Shown piece by piece: positions 1,882-26,699 of a stretch of DNA of 43,202 bases; position 1 is the first letter of the stretch; every line of letters starts with the position of its first letter. The notes under the pieces are model-generated. The model was not told the DNA's origin, made no database searches, and saw only the letters and a list, made by a program, of their open reading frames with translations. Origin of the DNA: a virus. The stretch lies in IMG/VR virus record IMGVR_UViG_3300009034_000084, positions 1-43,202 of that record; one strand, 5' to 3'. A program made the position numbers and the translations under genes.

Positions 1882-2661
1882 TTAATTTTCATCTATCTTT
1901 TCCTTATTTCCCTCCACGTAAGCAAAAGCATTATGTGGATGAATTGACTCATGGTTTACAACAGACACCTTATAATGCGTAATCTGGGGGTGCCTCTCCA
2001 GCAATAACTTTGCCTCTCGCACTACATCCTCAACAAACATAGGATTGTCATACGCTTGTTCTGTGATTGCCTTCTCATCTGGTCTCTTCAATAAAGGTAT
2101 CACCGGTGCGCTTGCACATTTCAATGCGGTTTCAACTAACTCCTCTATCCAGACCCACCCGTCCATGCGAATAGTGATATCAACCTCACTCCTCTGGTTA
2201 TGTGCACCGTACTCACTGATTTCCTTACTGCATGGACACAAAGTCATAATTGGAGTTGATACTGTCAATGTAACATCTTCATCGAATACTGAAAACATTA
2301 CCGAAACCATTAATTTGGATTTCATCCCTGATTCTGGAGCAGTCATTTCCACGAAGTATGGAAAAGAGACCTGTAACATTCCATGTTCAGCTTGAAGTCT
2401 TTCCTTTACATCTGGAAGAATGGTCATCAGTAATAGGTTCAGTGACAACGGCTCATCAATATCTTCCAGACATTCAATAAACCGGCTCATGTGGGTTCCC
2501 CTTTGGTCTGAAGGCAAATCTACAGACACCTGAAATGTTCCAATTGTCTTCTGGAATCCCTGCGCCTTATCTTTTACCTCAATAGGTATGACAACATCTG
2601 TCACCCCTACTTGCTGTATTGTTACTCCTCTATTGTCTTTTTGGTTCTGTACGTCCTCCAT
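1882..2661 (-). CDS. folE2: GTP cyclohydrolase FolE2 (type IB)
   Basis: 259 residues, full length for the COG1469 family. It opens GTP to 7,8-dihydroneopterin triphosphate, the first step toward preQ0. Visible motifs: RGTHMSRFIE (about 54-63), the LCPCSKEISEYGAHNQRS block with metal-ligand cysteines (about 141-158), and VSVVNHESIHPHNAFA near the C-terminus. The block resembles bacterial FolE2 more than archaeal MptA, suggesting the gene came from a bacterial or phage source; this is a visual judgement. GAAGGAGGCAGACTTAG precedes the ATG at 2661. It overlaps the upstream phosphoesterase gene by 32 nt. Confidence 0.95.
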   Translation of the reverse strand: MEDVQNQKDNRGVTIQQVGVTDVVIPIEVKDKAQGFQKTIGTFQVSVDLPSDQRGTHMSRFIECLEDIDEPLSLNLLLMTILPDVKERLQAEHGMLQVSFPYFVEMTAPESGMKSKLMVSVMFSVFDEDVTLTVSTPIMTLCPCSKEISEYGAHNQRSEVDITIRMDGWVWIEELVETALKCASAPVIPLLKRPDEKAITEQAYDNPMFVEDVVREAKLLLERHPQITHYKVSVVNHESIHPHNAFAYVEGNKEKIDEN

Positions 2662-3799
2662 CTAAGTCTGCCTCCTTCAGCAAGTCAATCTCATATCTCC
2701 AAGTAATCCCGTACTTGCGATTGACTCCAAACACTATTTGCACGGTCGACCCTGTAAGACCAATCGTCTCAATTGACCAGTCATCGTCCGTCATGAATGT
2801 TCCATTCGCAATTATCTGTATTGCATTCCAGTTTACTCCCAACGCCGCAACGTGAAAATGACCAACAACCATATATTCGAACTCTCCGATACTTTGTAGC
2901 CACCTCATTGCTTTATTGGTTAGGCCATACCACGGAAACTGATTCCACATTTTTACTTGATTTCCATGTGTAACCAAGAACGGATGTCCCATTATTTCAT
3001 GCAGAATAATTCCTTTCGTCTTATTCGGGTAATGAAAACTAACACGCTCATTGCCTTGTAACAACACATCCATCAGTGTATATGCAACCAAATCCCAGTT
3101 AGTCTTTGGGTCGCCTTTCCATTGTCCTCGACCATGATTGCCAGGAGCACAAAGAACTTCAACTTCCAGGAACTTGGCAGATAAACGTTGAACCATTGCC
3201 GCAATCTCTTTACTTGCATTAAGTGACTGTTGCAGGACTCCGTACTCTACCTCGTACCCGTGTCCTCTGTAGATTTCCTCTCCATCAACAATATCACCGA
3301 CCAATATAATTACCAACTTCTTAATCGGACAGTAGTGCCGATGTAGATTGACAATCTTCATAATGGAATGCTCCATTACGTTTAGTCTTTGCAAAAACAC
3401 ATCATACGAATATGATATAGTTCTTCGTCCTACGTGTGTGTCGCCAATAACTACTACCATTGCTTCCTCTTGAATAACACTCTTACCAATATTTTCCAAG
3501 TACTTAGGAGTCCGGAAGGAGCTCGTATCTAATTTTCCAATTGCACTCCTTACAGCGTCCTCAACAGTTTCAGCTGTCTGTGTCATCTTGCCGAGCTGAT
3601 ATCTTGCTGGTCTGTTTTTTACAGGTTGAATTGTGGTAATAGAATATCCAGCGGCTCTTGCACGTTGAACTAATTTTCTTAAATGGTCTGTACTACATCC
3701 CATTTCCTTAGCTAGTGTCGTTGACGAAGCAGTCATTTTTGGCTTTGTCTTAATTATTGACACTAACTTTTGTGCTTGTGTAAATCTTTCCTCAGTCAT
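2630..3799 (-). CDS. HTH-metallophosphoesterase fusion protein
   Basis: 389 residues. The N-terminal 70 residues form a helix-turn-helix/winged module (TLAKEMGCSTDHLRKLVQRA). The rest is a calcineurin-like phosphoesterase with the full metal-binding set: GDTH (119-122), GDIVDG (168-173), GNHGRG (220-225), THGNQ (about 273-277) and GHFH (about 314-317). Such enzymes hydrolyse phosphodiesters or phosphomonoesters with two metals. It is embedded in the preQ0 operon, its start overlapping the queE stop as TAATG, with GAGGGATTTA as ribosome site. Substrate unknown; a DNA- or nucleotide-directed role is plausible because of the HTH. Confidence 0.85.
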   Translation of the reverse strand: MTEERFTQAQKLVSIIKTKPKMTASSTTLAKEMGCSTDHLRKLVQRARAAGYSITTIQPVKNRPARYQLGKMTQTAETVEDAVRSAIGKLDTSSFRTPKYLENIGKSVIQEEAMVVVIGDTHVGRRTISYSYDVFLQRLNVMEHSIMKIVNLHRHYCPIKKLVIILVGDIVDGEEIYRGHGYEVEYGVLQQSLNASKEIAAMVQRLSAKFLEVEVLCAPGNHGRGQWKGDPKTNWDLVAYTLMDVLLQGNERVSFHYPNKTKGIILHEIMGHPFLVTHGNQVKMWNQFPWYGLTNKAMRWLQSIGEFEYMVVGHFHVAALGVNWNAIQIIANGTFMTDDDWSIETIGLTGSTVQIVFGVNRKYGITWRYEIDLLKEADLDGGRTEPKRQ

Positions 3800-4539
3800 T
3801 AAATCCCTCTCTTTTTGTCAGGCCATAAGACCTTATGTAATTGAATCTGAAAGCGAACAGGTAGTTCGTCATCTAGAATTTTATTCGCCAAAATCATGGG
3901 CCATTGCTTGTTGTCATCTAATATTACAGGAGAAAATATCACATTCCTGTTTTCGATGAGCTTTTCCGGAACCATGCTGGATAATATTCCTTTCGCCCAT
4001 TCGTAATCGATGTCGCCGCCAATTACAAATTTCACTTCATCCTTGTGTGGTTGCATTGACTTTAGTACTGATACTATATTCGCTGAGTCCAGTTGCTCGT
4101 TTGATGAAGGACATTTCACGTCGACAATCCAGTAGATGTTGTTCTTGTGAATTGGAATTTCGAAGCTTCCATTTGTTTCAATGGAAATGATAACATTATC
4201 GTCAAATATATCTGTGAGTCTATTACATAATTCCACAATCTCATTTCCATATATTAAGGGCTCTCCGCCAGTGATGCAAACAAATACATTGCGTTTCTGT
4301 CTACGCGCAAGTTCCTGGGTGACACTTATAACTACTTCCTCGGCTGTCATCTCTGTATAACCCTTTTCTATTTGAGCTTCTTCCTCTTCTGGTACTGTCT
4401 GTACTGTAGGCTCTACAGCGTACAATGAGTCACAGTAGCTACAGCGTAAATTACAACCATAGACCCTGATAAACAAAGTCGGTATTCCTGACAGCGATGA
4501 TTCGCCTTGAATACTAAAGAATATTTCGCTAATCTTCAC
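3799..4539 (-). CDS. queE: QueE, 7-carboxy-7-deazaguanine synthase (radical SAM)
   Basis: 246 residues, start GTG at 4539 preceded by GGTGATTAA. QueE is a radical-SAM enzyme that contracts 6-carboxytetrahydropterin to 7-carboxy-7-deazaguanine. The cluster motif GCNLRCSYCDS gives C29, C33 and C36 (CX3CX2C), the N-terminus FFSIQGES is typical of QueE, and FVCITGGEPL carries the GGEP SAM-binding motif. An insertion rich in Glu (about residues 46-62) follows the cluster, as in the longer QueE subtype. It lies directly downstream of queD with one operon orientation. Confidence 0.95.
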   Translation of the reverse strand: MKISEIFFSIQGESSLSGIPTLFIRVYGCNLRCSYCDSLYAVEPTVQTVPEEEEAQIEKGYTEMTAEEVVISVTQELARRQKRNVFVCITGGEPLIYGNEIVELCNRLTDIFDDNVIISIETNGSFEIPIHKNNIYWIVDVKCPSSNEQLDSANIVSVLKSMQPHKDEVKFVIGGDIDYEWAKGILSSMVPEKLIENRNVIFSPVILDDNKQWPMILANKILDDELPVRFQIQLHKVLWPDKKRGI

Positions 4540-4998
4540 TTAATCACCCTGAGGTTCTACGTGCTCATAAAAAATCCCAATTGCATAAGATGTTTCACTT
4601 TCATACAGTTTTACTTCCACAACAGTAATGTTCCTTATCAAGCACTCTTGAAGTTTATAAATTTGTTCTGCAAAATATTGTGCCATATGTTCGCAAGTAA
4701 TAACTGGTACTGGAATATAAACGAAGTCTTTATTTTCAAACGGAAGGTTAATCAGGTCGCCTAACTTCTCGTCTTTAACAGATTCATGGTCTGGAAACCA
4801 GAATTTGTGGTCGTATTCCTTCAGAAATTCCTTTACATCCTTAAAATCAATTATCATCCCGTCTTCTTTAACTTGACCAGTTATAAATATCTCCAACCTC
4901 CAATTGTGTCCATGCAATCTGTAACACGGCGACTTCTTATCAGTATGTACTATGTGAGCGGCTGCAAGAGTTACCTCAAGGTGAATGTTGCTGTTCAT
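4540..4998 (-). CDS. queD: QueD, 6-carboxytetrahydropterin synthase
   Basis: 152 residues from ATG 4998, chosen because GGAGGAGAAAAATA lies just upstream; a longer GTG-led frame to 5034 would add twelve basic residues and bury that site. QueD converts dihydroneopterin triphosphate to 6-carboxy-tetrahydropterin. Zinc-ligand histidines are visible at AAAH (H15) and LHGHNW (H29, H31), the catalytic cysteine at SPCYRLHGH (C25), and an acid-base Glu/His in TCEHMAQY. The gene overlaps the end of the DUF3310 gene and is followed immediately by queE. Confidence 0.95.
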   Translation of the reverse strand: MNSNIHLEVTLAAAHIVHTDKKSPCYRLHGHNWRLEIFITGQVKEDGMIIDFKDVKEFLKEYDHKFWFPDHESVKDEKLGDLINLPFENKDFVYIPVPVITCEHMAQYFAEQIYKLQECLIRNITVVEVKLYESETSYAIGIFYEHVEPQGD

Positions 4999-5209
4999 TA
5001 TTTTTCTCCTCCATCTCCTTAACCTTCCTACCAAGGTAATATAGCGCTTTCTTTAAGTCCTCTAATGGAGTCCCTTTATGTTTATAGCGCGCAATATACT
5101 TGACAGCATTGCCAAGTAAGAAATCTAAATCCCAATCAATAATCACATCGATTGGCTCATGTTCAAACCGAACATAATGTTCTGGTCTAACAATCTTATC
5201 GTCTTCCAT
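4976..5209 (-). CDS. DUF3310 family protein
   Basis: 77 residues matching the phage DUF3310 family: VRPEHYVRFEHEPIDVI, then LDFLLGNAVKYIARYKHKG and LEDLKKALYYL. The family is widespread in phage replication and nucleotide-metabolism modules and has been labelled a nucleotide kinase in databases, but its biochemical role is not established. The last 20 residues are hydrophilic and overlap the queD start. TAATG links it to the nuclease gene upstream. Confidence 0.85.
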   Translation of the reverse strand: MEDDKIVRPEHYVRFEHEPIDVIIDWDLDFLLGNAVKYIARYKHKGTPLEDLKKALYYLGRKVKEMEEKNNEQQHSP

Positions 5210-5964
5210 TATTCCACATCCGTTGCTTCCTCAGTTAAACAAATTTCATCATAAGGGCACCATTGACAAACGTATCCTGGTTTCTTCTCAAACATATGGG
5301 ATTGAACTGCTTCTCTAACCTTATTCAGATTCCTATAAAATGCTTTCTTACTAATATCCTTCAGCTTTTCATAGAATACCCCGGGAACTTCACCTACAAA
5401 TATGATGCCTATAAACTTCACCTTCCCGGGAACTAATCCACTTGCATTTACCAGGTGAGCATATCCTGCCAACTCTAGTCGGTGTTTGGAAAATGAACTT
5501 TGATGCTTAGGATACTTACTTACTTTATAGTCTAGTACAGCGTAATCATCTCCCACCTTATCTACCCGGTCAACTGTACCATAGAATTTAATTTCATCAT
5601 CCTTGAGGTATAGCTCTCGGTACAATGGAAAGAATTCTTCGAGATTATCTCCTCTCCTCTTCATATTGTCAAAACGCTTTTGCTCAAGCTGAATGAAGTT
5701 TTTACATGGGTCGTTGTCCGGTAGGTGTTTCGCGTACTCTTCAGAAATAGATACCTCCCCCCGAAGAATAGCGCCCTTATCAATCTTGTCATACAACTCA
5801 AATGCATCATCGTGGAATTGCGAACCAATATTCATCTCGAAAGTGGACCCTTGAATATTCTTCACAACCATATACTCGAATCTTCGCGGGCATTGCTTGT
5901 AAGACAATATCCCTGACTTTGAAAGCCAGACGTTCTCGAAATCAAATGGTTCAAACTTCCTCAA
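5209..5964 (-). CDS. Cas4/RecB-like PD-(D/E)XK nuclease with Fe-S cysteines
   Basis: 251 residues, start TTG at 5964 with AAGGAGGACAAACT before it. The fold is the Cas4/RecB exonuclease type: C25 in YKQCPRRFEY, an active-site YGTVDRVD then VLDYKVSK (the D...D-x-K core), and C-terminal CQWCPYDEIC giving C233, C236 and C242. Four such cysteines bind a 4Fe-4S cluster in Cas4/AddB-type nucleases. There is no cas1/cas2 or CRISPR array nearby, so a role in viral replication, recombination or host DNA degradation is more likely than spacer acquisition. Confidence 0.88.
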   Translation of the reverse strand: MRKFEPFDFENVWLSKSGILSYKQCPRRFEYMVVKNIQGSTFEMNIGSQFHDDAFELYDKIDKGAILRGEVSISEEYAKHLPDNDPCKNFIQLEQKRFDNMKRRGDNLEEFFPLYRELYLKDDEIKFYGTVDRVDKVGDDYAVLDYKVSKYPKHQSSFSKHRLELAGYAHLVNASGLVPGKVKFIGIIFVGEVPGVFYEKLKDISKKAFYRNLNKVREAVQSHMFEKKPGYVCQWCPYDEICLTEEATDVE

Positions 5965-10191: not shown

Positions 10192-10701
10192 TTACACGTC
10201 ACCAGCACCATCTACATCCCTCAATATATCAAGCAAGTCGGCTAATTGCTGCTTCCATCTATCATTATCTATCCATAAACAGTACCGTAACCTGTCACAT
10301 TCCATCATTAGTTGACAACTTACGCTATGATAGTGCTTTTCTGTAAATGGTCTTAATATCTTATCAATGGTATCCTCCACACTCAACATACATCTAAAGT
10401 CAATATGTGCTCTTCTTCCATGTTCTGGGCATTCTATATCTTCGCCGTGCCCGCAGCATGACTGAGTAGTCATTATAAATGGAAACTCGTTAATCATCTC
10501 GAGAAAGGGAGTTATTGCTTTATCTATGTAGCCTTCTTTCTTTTCCTCGTAGTAGGTTTTGAGGCGGTACTGTTTCTCCTCTCCCGTAAGGATATTACCC
10601 TTAAACTCTTCCAACCCCATATTTATCCATCCGCTTTCCCCACACTCGGGACATTTCGGCCACACCATTGCACGTTTTGCTCTTGTTATTCCGTCACTCA
10701 T
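10192..10701 (-). CDS. conserved viral-type hypothetical protein with zinc motif
   Basis: 169 residues, ATG 10701 with GAGGTGATTTA before it. N-terminal CPECGESGW is a half zinc ribbon; the centre has TTQSCCGHGEDIECPEH followed by AHIDFR, a Cys/His-rich motif I have seen in phage proteins of unknown function. The C-terminal half is helical. The TQSC-x-GH arrangement weakly recalls TYW3-like folds but I would not assign that function. Confidence 0.7.
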   Translation of the reverse strand: MSDGITRAKRAMVWPKCPECGESGWINMGLEEFKGNILTGEEKQYRLKTYYEEKKEGYIDKAITPFLEMINEFPFIMTTQSCCGHGEDIECPEHGRRAHIDFRCMLSVEDTIDKILRPFTEKHYHSVSCQLMMECDRLRYCLWIDNDRWKQQLADLLDILRDVDGAGDV

Positions 10702-13965: not shown

Positions 13966-14430
13966 TTAACTAACACTTTCCGCAAAAGCTATTGCCATGC
14001 GTTTTGCATCATCTATAGTCTTGGCTTCAAAACCAACAGGTAATGACAAGTCCCATTCGGGATGTTCCTTAAGACATTCCTCAGTCCAGCCCGAACTTGC
14101 AGTTGCATCACCTTCTTTGACAACGTCACCAATTCCAAATCCGTACATTGCTCTATGAGACCATCCGTACCATTTTTGTTCCTTTTCGCAATAGCCTATA
14201 CAGCATGTACCCCTTTCACTTCCATTATGTTGAAACTCTTCTGGAAAAGGTTCGGGTTTTATGCCCATCTTTCGAGTTAGTCTTTCCGCAGTCTGCTGGT
14301 TACCGATGTAGTGACCATCCAATGTAAAAGCGCTCTCTATCTCATGTCGGTCATTTTCATCACCGAACTCAATTTGCTTCAATATATAAAGACCATCGAT
14401 GTTGCTTTCTCCTAGTATTTTGTTCTCCAT
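13966..14430 (-). CDS. conserved phage-type hypothetical protein
   Basis: 154 residues, ATG 14430 with GGAGGTGAATGA before it. It contains LDGHYIGN and CCIGYCEKEQKWYGWSHRA followed by MYGFGIGD; this combination occurs in many uncharacterised phage proteins. It sits between PolB and the DpdA-like gene. A role in DNA replication or modification is suggested only by position. Confidence 0.8.
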   Translation of the reverse strand: MENKILGESNIDGLYILKQIEFGDENDRHEIESAFTLDGHYIGNQQTAERLTRKMGIKPEPFPEEFQHNGSERGTCCIGYCEKEQKWYGWSHRAMYGFGIGDVVKEGDATASSGWTEECLKEHPEWDLSLPVGFEAKTIDDAKRMAIAFAESVS

Positions 14431-20623: not shown

Positions 20624-20877
20624 TACATCACCTTCCCTATCTCCTCATCCGTTGAATGTAACATTCCCTGACCTGCCAAAGCCTCTTCCTCTATCCCTAA
20701 ATCACTTCGCAACTTCTGAACTTCCTTCACCTTCCTCGTCTTCTCTATGTCCTCTTTATGCAAGTACTCAACATATGCAATTAACCCCTTAATTCTCTCC
20801 TCTAGGTGCAATATCCAGAATGCCATGAGAACTAACGCAATTCCAAATATAGCTATGCATAAGTCACTATCGAAAAT
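20623..20877 (-). CDS. small membrane protein with coiled-coil tail, possible ATT start
   Basis: The reading frame is open above the first ATG (20826) and encodes a transmembrane segment, LCIAIFGIALVLMAFWIL, continuous with the coiled-coil tail. The only ribosome site, GGAGGGGATTTA, stands 7 nt before an ATT codon at 20877-20875. I therefore propose an 84-residue protein starting at ATT. If initiation uses ATG 20826 the product is 67 residues and loses most of the membrane helix. Unknown function; the tail is rich in Glu and Lys. Confidence 0.5.
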   Translation of the reverse strand: MFDSDLCIAIFGIALVLMAFWILHLEERIKGLIAYVEYLHKEDIEKTRKVKEVQKLRSDLGIEEEALAGQGMLHSTDEEIGKVM

Positions 20878-21010
20878 TAAATCCCCTCCAAAGCCACTCT
20901 GCTTCGTCCCAAAGTTTCTCCATCTTTTTCATAAAGTCTTCTTTCGTCTTTCCTGCTTTTAGGAACGCTAGTGCTAGGTCTTTAATTGCTTCTGTAATTG
21001 TTGTCTTCAT
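20867..21010 (-). CDS. 47-residue helical microprotein
   Basis: Reads MKTTITEAIKDLALAFLKAG and ends AEWLWRGFNFR; ATG 21010 is preceded by GGTGAACGG. Amphipathic helices with Trp near the end. It lies 13 bp downstream of the tRNA 3' end and its last 11 bases overlap the next gene's start. Compact design, ribosome site and codon use support it as a real gene; function unknown. Confidence 0.65.
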   Translation of the reverse strand: MKTTITEAIKDLALAFLKAGKTKEDFMKKMEKLWDEAEWLWRGFNFR

Positions 21011-21023
21011 CCGTTCACCGTGA

Positions 21024-21155
21024 TAGCGAGGGCTGGATTTGAACCAACGAACTCGAGGTGTCTCAATTAGTCCTAGCGAGGTGGTTTGGCCAGAACTCCT
21101 CCACTAAGACCTCTCATATGAGCCTCGCGGGATAACCGGGCTACCCTACCTCGCT
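21024..21155 (-). tRNA. tRNA-Met (CAU), initiator-like, with a 57-nt intron
   Basis: Exons 21155-21117 and 21059-21024 fold into a complete cloverleaf: acceptor AGCGAGG/CCTCGCT with A73, D-arm GGG/CCC, anticodon stem CGAGG/CCTCG with loop CTCATAA, and T-arm GTTGG TTCAAAT CCAGC. A1-U72 is the mark of archaeal initiator tRNAs; elongator Met and Ile2 usually begin with G. The intron (21116-21060) sits between positions 37 and 38. CTCA in the anticodon loop pairs with TGAG near the intron end, leaving 3-nt bulges TAT and ACA, consistent with a bulge-helix-bulge site for the splicing endonuclease. The outer helix inside the intron is weak. CCA is not encoded. The usual GGG/CCC initiator stem is AGG/CCT here. 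Confidence 0.88.
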
Positions 21156-21336
21156 ATATTGTACCCTCCATTATTGATATTAGGTCTTGTAGTTCTTTCT
21201 GTACCCATTGAAGTTCATCAATTCTTGTTTCCATTAGTTTATGCAATAGTGGGTCGTTTACCTTTGCTTTAGTTAATTGTAGGCTATACAATCTCGTATT
21301 GATGCTTTTTGTTAATTCCTGTAACAATCTTTCCAT
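21154..21336 (-). CDS. small coiled-coil protein
   Basis: 60 residues, ATG 21336 with AGGAGGAAAATA before it. Predicted helical throughout with heptad-like leucines (LLQELTKSINTRLYSLQLTK). The TAG stop overlaps the first bases of the tRNA gene, so the two share a transcript. Function unknown. Confidence 0.7.
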   Translation of the reverse strand: MERLLQELTKSINTRLYSLQLTKAKVNDPLLHKLMETRIDELQWVQKELQDLISIMEGTI

Positions 21337-26247: not shown

Positions 26248-26448
26248 TTAATCGCCCATTTCCCTCATTATAGTCTTCACCCTAGCGATATCTCTCCTGA
26301 GAGGTCTCATCTTCATTGGCTTCCCTTGATTAACCAGAGATTTCCTAGCTCCCTTTTGCCAGGTCAATTCATTCTCTAGTTGTGTTAACAACTCTTGCCT
26401 TTTCTCAGGAGTCATCTTCCTAATCTTCTTAAGCTCATCTGACTTCAT
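26248..26448 (-). CDS. ribosomal protein uL29 homologue
   Basis: 66 residues from ATG 26448, chosen for GGTGAAAAG upstream; the frame extends to 26469 but without a site. The whole length follows archaeal uL29: ELKKIRKMTPEKRQELLTQL (5-24), then a variable stretch and RPLRRDIARVKTIMRE (48-63), matching the conserved IRR-x-IAR-x-KTI end. uL29 sits near the exit tunnel on the large subunit. A virus copy might replace or compete with the host protein. Short helical proteins can look alike, so this is a visual call. Confidence 0.7.
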   Translation of the reverse strand: MKSDELKKIRKMTPEKRQELLTQLENELTWQKGARKSLVNQGKPMKMRPLRRDIARVKTIMREMGD

Positions 26449-26699
26449 CTTTTCACCGTCCATCCCCAATTAAGTAATATCTCACCTGCAAGTCTTTCAG
26501 CTTTATTCTTAGGCCACTTCAATCTATCCTTAATATGTTGTACCATCCAATTGAACCACTCATCTTGTTCTTTCTCGGTCCAGCTATACTCTTCATACCA
26601 ATTTGGTTTGCTCGTTAATTCTGGACTCGGATATTCAAGACCCTTACGTCTGAACATCTCTTTCAGACATTCTGATACTACTTCATCTAATTTATTCAT
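26445..26699 (-). CDS. hypothetical protein
   Basis: 84 residues rich in Trp and charged residues (NWYEEYSWTEKEQDEWFNW). Ends in LLNWGWTVKR. ATG 26699 is preceded by AGAGGAA. No cysteine pair. Family not recognised. Overlaps the uL29-like start by 4 nt. Confidence 0.7.
   Translation of the reverse strand: MNKLDEVVSECLKEMFRRKGLEYPSPELTSKPNWYEEYSWTEKEQDEWFNWMVQHIKDRLKWPKNKAERLAGEILLNWGWTVKR

Follow-up and report, generated by a model that had tools for sequence, protein, structure and literature searches.

The window, a 43,202-nt stretch of DNA from an IMG/VR virus record, carries a complete tRNA-Met(CAU) gene on the minus strand (21155–21024), interrupted by a 57-nt intron between positions 37 and 38 (ARAGORN, introns allowed). 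Exon 1 (21117–21155, minus) comprises the acceptor strand, the D arm, the 5' strand of the anticodon stem and the loop as far as A37; within it the CAU anticodon lies at 21120–21118 and positions 29–31, which read AGG, at 21125–21123. The intron occupies 21060–21116 (minus), and exon 2 (21024–21059, minus) supplies A38, CCU at positions 39–41, the T arm and the 3' acceptor strand with U72 and A73; the 3' CCA is not encoded. Once spliced, the 75-nt tRNA (AGCGAGGUAGGGUAGCCCGGUUAUCCCGCGAGGCUCAUAACCUCGAGUUCGUUGGUUCAAAUCCAGCCCUCGCUA) folds into a perfect cloverleaf (-29.2 kcal/mol, z -2.7) with every stem intact. The A1-U72 acceptor end, the CAU anticodon and an anticodon stem of A29-U41 followed by two G-C pairs can be read straight off the sequence, and the 7-nt anticodon loop, CUCAUAA, is unaltered. 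A preliminary description had placed a clean cloverleaf with A1-U72 and CAU at 21024–21155 without naming a strand; its coordinates were exact, and the sequence, the fold and the match to the Rfam tRNA model all agree with it.

The gene is easily overlooked. ARAGORN run without introns reports no tRNA gene in the window, because the default run ignores introns; with introns allowed it finds this single gene across the 43 kb and none in 20 shuffled windows. An Rfam scan at gathering thresholds also missed it, evidently through loss by the fast filters: under permissive filters the Rfam tRNA model scored 46.4 bits (E 6.3e-9; gathering score 29) over exactly 21155–21024.

The surrounding DNA is an archaeal tailed-virus contig (Caudoviricetes), and the tRNA sits inside a string of viral genes. 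The window encodes ribonucleotide reductase (RNR), a family B DNA polymerase (PolB), calcineurin-like and PD-(D/E)XK nucleases, FolE2, QueD, QueE, dCMP deaminase, a dUTPase-like protein, uracil-DNA glycosylase and an ERCC4 nuclease, and contains repeated TATATAAA motifs that look like archaeal promoters. Full-length matches to its PolB among phage records come from haloarchaeal tailed viruses, with identities of about 25%. Closer relatives emerged from IMG/VR by an alignment-based scan (a single-sequence scan gave none): G010 at 59% PolB identity, and G019, G016, G017 and G015 at 34–40%. A replication module is common to the window and four of these contigs (G010, G016, G017 and G019) in much the same order. 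No close DNA relatives of the 19–29 kb stretch were found in phage records, and no terminase, portal or capsid genes were recognised in the 43-kb fragment; G016 has a weak terminase match, below cut-off. As a provirus search for the host, we looked for the group's conserved 383-aa protein in Thermoplasmatota genomes and found it in 0 of 243, a result that is uninformative for lytic viruses.

Several other genes on the contig deserve mention in their own right. FolE2, QueE and QueD lie together (1882–5034, minus) and form a partial preQ0 pathway, possibly serving 7-deazaguanine DNA modification as in haloviruses. An ORF at 10192–10701 (minus) resembles the wybutosine enzyme TYW3 weakly, below threshold (E 4.8e-6), and may be a tRNA-modification relative. 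A homologue of ribosomal protein uL29 is encoded at 26248–26469 (minus; PF00831, E 5e-11, 42.9 bits against a cut-off of 24.5). It is of the archaeal type, with archaeal uL29 chains among its best PDB matches, and was found neither among phage records nor on the related contigs tested. As a second translation component on the contig, it suggests a wider viral interest in translation.

Immediately upstream of the tRNA, a 60-aa ORF (21154–21336, minus) has a GGAGG site before its ATG and ends in a TAG stop (21156–21154) that overlaps the first two tRNA bases; downstream, a 47-aa ORF (20867–21010, minus) starts 13 nt past the tRNA 3' end. This packing points to the tRNA being part of a viral transcription unit, and it bears on whether the gene is simply a passenger, that is, a host tRNA gene picked up recently, or what is left of an integration site, with no selected function. 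Archaeal viruses often integrate at tRNA genes (PMC4090602), and such a tRNA is absent from the closest relatives where covered, including G010, which means that the group does not share it. The stems, however, are all intact, and viral ORFs enclose the gene, the upstream one with a stop codon that runs into it, leading us to regard a mere passenger as rather unlikely. Integration in particular was rejected as an explanation, since none of the 67 small ORFs scanned encodes an integrase and the window holds no second tRNA copy or fragment of at least 13 nt.

The splice junction consists of a 4-bp central helix, CUCA/UGAG, in which exon CUCA (32–35) pairs with UGAG close to the 3' end of the intron, with a 3-nt bulge on each side, UA^U and AC^A. 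Bulges of 3 nt on either side of a 4-bp helix are the spacing required by the archaeal tRNA endonuclease. In the minimum-energy fold the intron-side helix begins only after an internal loop, so the junction appears to be of the relaxed type and not the full hBHBh'; relaxed forms of the bulge-helix-bulge junction are known. The 57-nt intron at 37/38 with a bulge-helix-bulge-like junction, already recognised in the preliminary description, thus stands, probably in this relaxed form. Among archaea such an intron is nothing unusual: of the 48 cellular initiators parsed, 11 have one at 37/38, 20–55 nt long, and one Thermoplasmatota initiator (L152) has the same CUCA/UGAG core, CUCAUA^UGA...UGAGAG^A.

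To place the tRNA among methionine and isoleucine tRNAs, we extracted cellular initiators from the genomes of 97 Thermoplasmatota and 100 members of the Woesearchaeota phylum, removed their introns and built a covariance model (R1) from the 19 distinct sequences aligned. Across five archaeal genomes R1 scored initiators at 85–101 bits and all other tRNAs at 66.1 bits or less. The viral tRNA reached 73.2 bits even though the intron was included and lowered the score; for cellular initiators that have introns the range was 79.7–89.5 bits. After splicing it agrees with 47 of the 50 columns that are invariant in the 19 cellular initiators, the mismatches being a T at D-loop position 20 and both sides of the 29-41 pair. 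T20 is not the consensus base of cellular initiators in the two phyla sampled, yet is present in some Thermoplasmatota. Identity to cellular initiators reaches 88% (L151), and Thermoplasmatota initiators come up to the same value. A CAU anticodon on a stem other than GGG could also belong to an elongator tRNA-Met or tRNA-Ile2 that merely resembles an initiator. A score above every non-initiator tRNA tested, even with the intron included, together with the invariant-column match, A1-U72, G11-C24 and the 88% identity, makes this very improbable. Judged by sequence, then, the tRNA is of the initiator type, as first proposed.

The anticodon stem is where it departs from the usual pattern. In place of three consecutive G-C pairs from 29-41 to 31-39 it has AGG/CCU, with G30-C40 and G31-C39 kept; the change from GGG to AGG had been noticed at the outset and is plain from the A29-U41 pair. 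The AGG version of the initiator pattern occurs in 3 of 84,980 species genomes, one Woesearchaeota (L011) and two Thermoplasmata (L012, L013), each time with A29-U41 in the sole pattern match of the genome. Unlike the viral gene, these three are chromosomal and have no anticodon-loop intron. Because these three cellular species share AGG, the GGG signature is usual (almost universal) rather than defining, and we class the viral tRNA as initiator-type on its other features. An AU/GC/GC stem of this kind is also found in many mycoplasma initiators. Structural work places rRNA contacts on pairs 29-41 and 30-40, with G30 most important for fidelity (PMC7005279). Since G30-C40 is kept, the effect of A29-U41 should be mild, and the change is most likely tolerated drift that preserves the important pair.

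The same position is nonetheless variable among viruses. GGG is present in 75 of 75 unselected cellular initiator matches, none of which has lost G29-C41, whereas the pair is lost in 5 of the 11 viral lineages found, the window counted, although the hosts differ and the cellular sample covers two phyla (Thermoplasmatota and the Woesearchaeota phylum). G29 has become A in the window, L008, L005 and L191 (the last two with A1 opposite C72) and U in a halophile group (L003, L004, L006 and L010). It is kept in viral L002, L007, L009, L189, L190 and L192, although in L002 and L009 the tRNA is close to a contig end and may belong to the host flank of a provirus. One could propose that selection has repeatedly removed G29-C41 from viral initiators, yielding a somewhat relaxed form of the tRNA that initiates viral messages at weak or non-AUG sites or escapes initiator-cleaving nucleases, and that here acts with the viral uL29 to alter host translation; we consider this improbable. 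The recurrent loss in viral initiator-like tRNAs does raise a testable question: is start-site stringency being tuned, or are initiator-cleaving toxins being dodged?

A related idea is that during infection the viral tRNA stands in for a host initiator that VapC or other anticodon nucleases have destroyed, the altered stem and an intron in the cleavage region making it a poorer target. VapC toxins cut initiator tRNA in bacteria (papers cited in PMC10264068), and phage tRNAs with anticodon-loop changes have been proposed to escape such nucleases (PMC10264068). The contig does invest in counter-defense, with a Tad6-family anti-Thoeris gene at 13966–14430 (minus; PF25188, E 3.6e-48) that has one weak phage relative (Phage NCTB), and the viral losses of G29-C41 would also fit. 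Against this, the CUCAUAA loop is unaltered, and phages as a rule do not encode tRNA-fMet where that tRNA is what the nuclease attacks (PMC10264068). Defense evasion therefore seems to us an unlikely explanation for the gene.

We favor instead, with a probability of roughly 0.7, the view that an archaeal tailed virus captured a host initiator gene with its canonical-position intron, and that the host splices the product, which supplies initiation during infection. The R1 score and invariant-column match, the identity to Thermoplasmatota initiators, the intact stems, a 29-41 position that is still paired (as A-U), an intron whose position and core match those of cellular initiator introns, the viral gene context and the uL29 homologue argue for this view; the relatives without the tRNA, and a T20 and A29-U41 that are off the consensus of the two phyla sampled, count against it. 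On the favored reading, the host gene and its intron would have been kept in a string of small viral genes and co-transcribed with the flanking ORFs. Host RNase P and tRNase Z would trim the ends of the pre-tRNA, and the host tRNA endonuclease and ligase would remove the intron. The spliced tRNA would then receive CCA, followed by methionine from the host MetRS, and the resulting Met-tRNA could, with aIF2, initiate translation at a time when viral messages are abundant. It might also, as the preliminary description proposed, bias initiation toward viral messages. If functional, this would be a natural example of a viral contribution to initiation itself, beyond codon-matching elongator tRNAs, and of a virus relying on the host tRNA splicing machinery for its initiator supply.

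Other viral contigs carry further tRNA genes. G016, a related virus of 88.9 kb, has a tRNA-Pro(UGG) with a 59-nt intron at 37/38 (L120 232–364, minus), whose intron pairing, by eye, fits a canonical junction. In the 95-kb relative G019, two odd tRNA-like genes (L126 6170–6449, plus), bearing one or more apparent introns, did not resolve into convincing tRNAs and were set aside. Ten further viral contig lineages carry an initiator-like tRNA whose 5' half is of the archaeal type, and several of these lineages also have portal, terminase or capsid genes. Among them, L003, L006 and L010 have viral tRNA arrays that include an initiator-like Met whose stem is UGG/CCA, with 28 tRNAs each in L003 and L010 and a portal gene near the array in L003. 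The 154.7-kb IMG/VR virus 3300028048_000061 (L192) has at least six tRNAs at 4047–5487 (minus), among which are a tRNA-Thr interrupted by a 63-nt intron and an initiator-like Met of the A1 type.

Among known systems, virus-encoded initiators have been reported for phage T5 (tRNA-fMet) and cyanophages (PMC4810235), and Caulobacter phage CcrBL10 has an annotated tRNA-fMet; like the present gene these are initiator tRNAs encoded by a virus, but they are of the bacterial type and have no intron. The initial expectation that viral tRNAs are usually elongators is fair, though T5, cyanophages and the ten lineages above are exceptions. Its companion, that viral tRNAs rarely have introns, holds poorly for archaeal viruses, given HGTV-1 tRNA-Ala and the tRNA-Pro and tRNA-Thr just described. 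HGTV-1 (KC292026) is an archaeal tailed virus with an annotated intron-containing tRNA-Ala(UGC), and its tRNA-Met also has AGG/CCU, but its intron lies in an elongator, and its tRNA-Met, with C1 against A72, scores 35 bits as an initiator; R1 thus gives no support to it as an initiator parallel, and we keep it as a lead only. L192 combines an initiator-like tRNA-Met with an intron-containing tRNA-Thr; unlike in the window, the initiator copy is intronless and retains GGG, and the contig has no PolB match to the window. Chromosomal intron-bearing initiators of archaea (Thermoplasmatota L140 and L152, Woesearchaeota-phylum L171 and L181) share with the viral tRNA A1-U72, CAU, a G-rich D stem and the 37/38 intron; the viral gene differs in being virus-encoded, in having A29-U41 rather than G29-C41, and in its slightly longer intron (57 versus 20–55 nt). 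A partial literature search turned up no virus for which an initiator tRNA with an intron had been reported. A virus-encoded initiator tRNA with an archaeal intron is thus real and unusual, yet viral initiators and archaeal-virus tRNA introns each have precedent.
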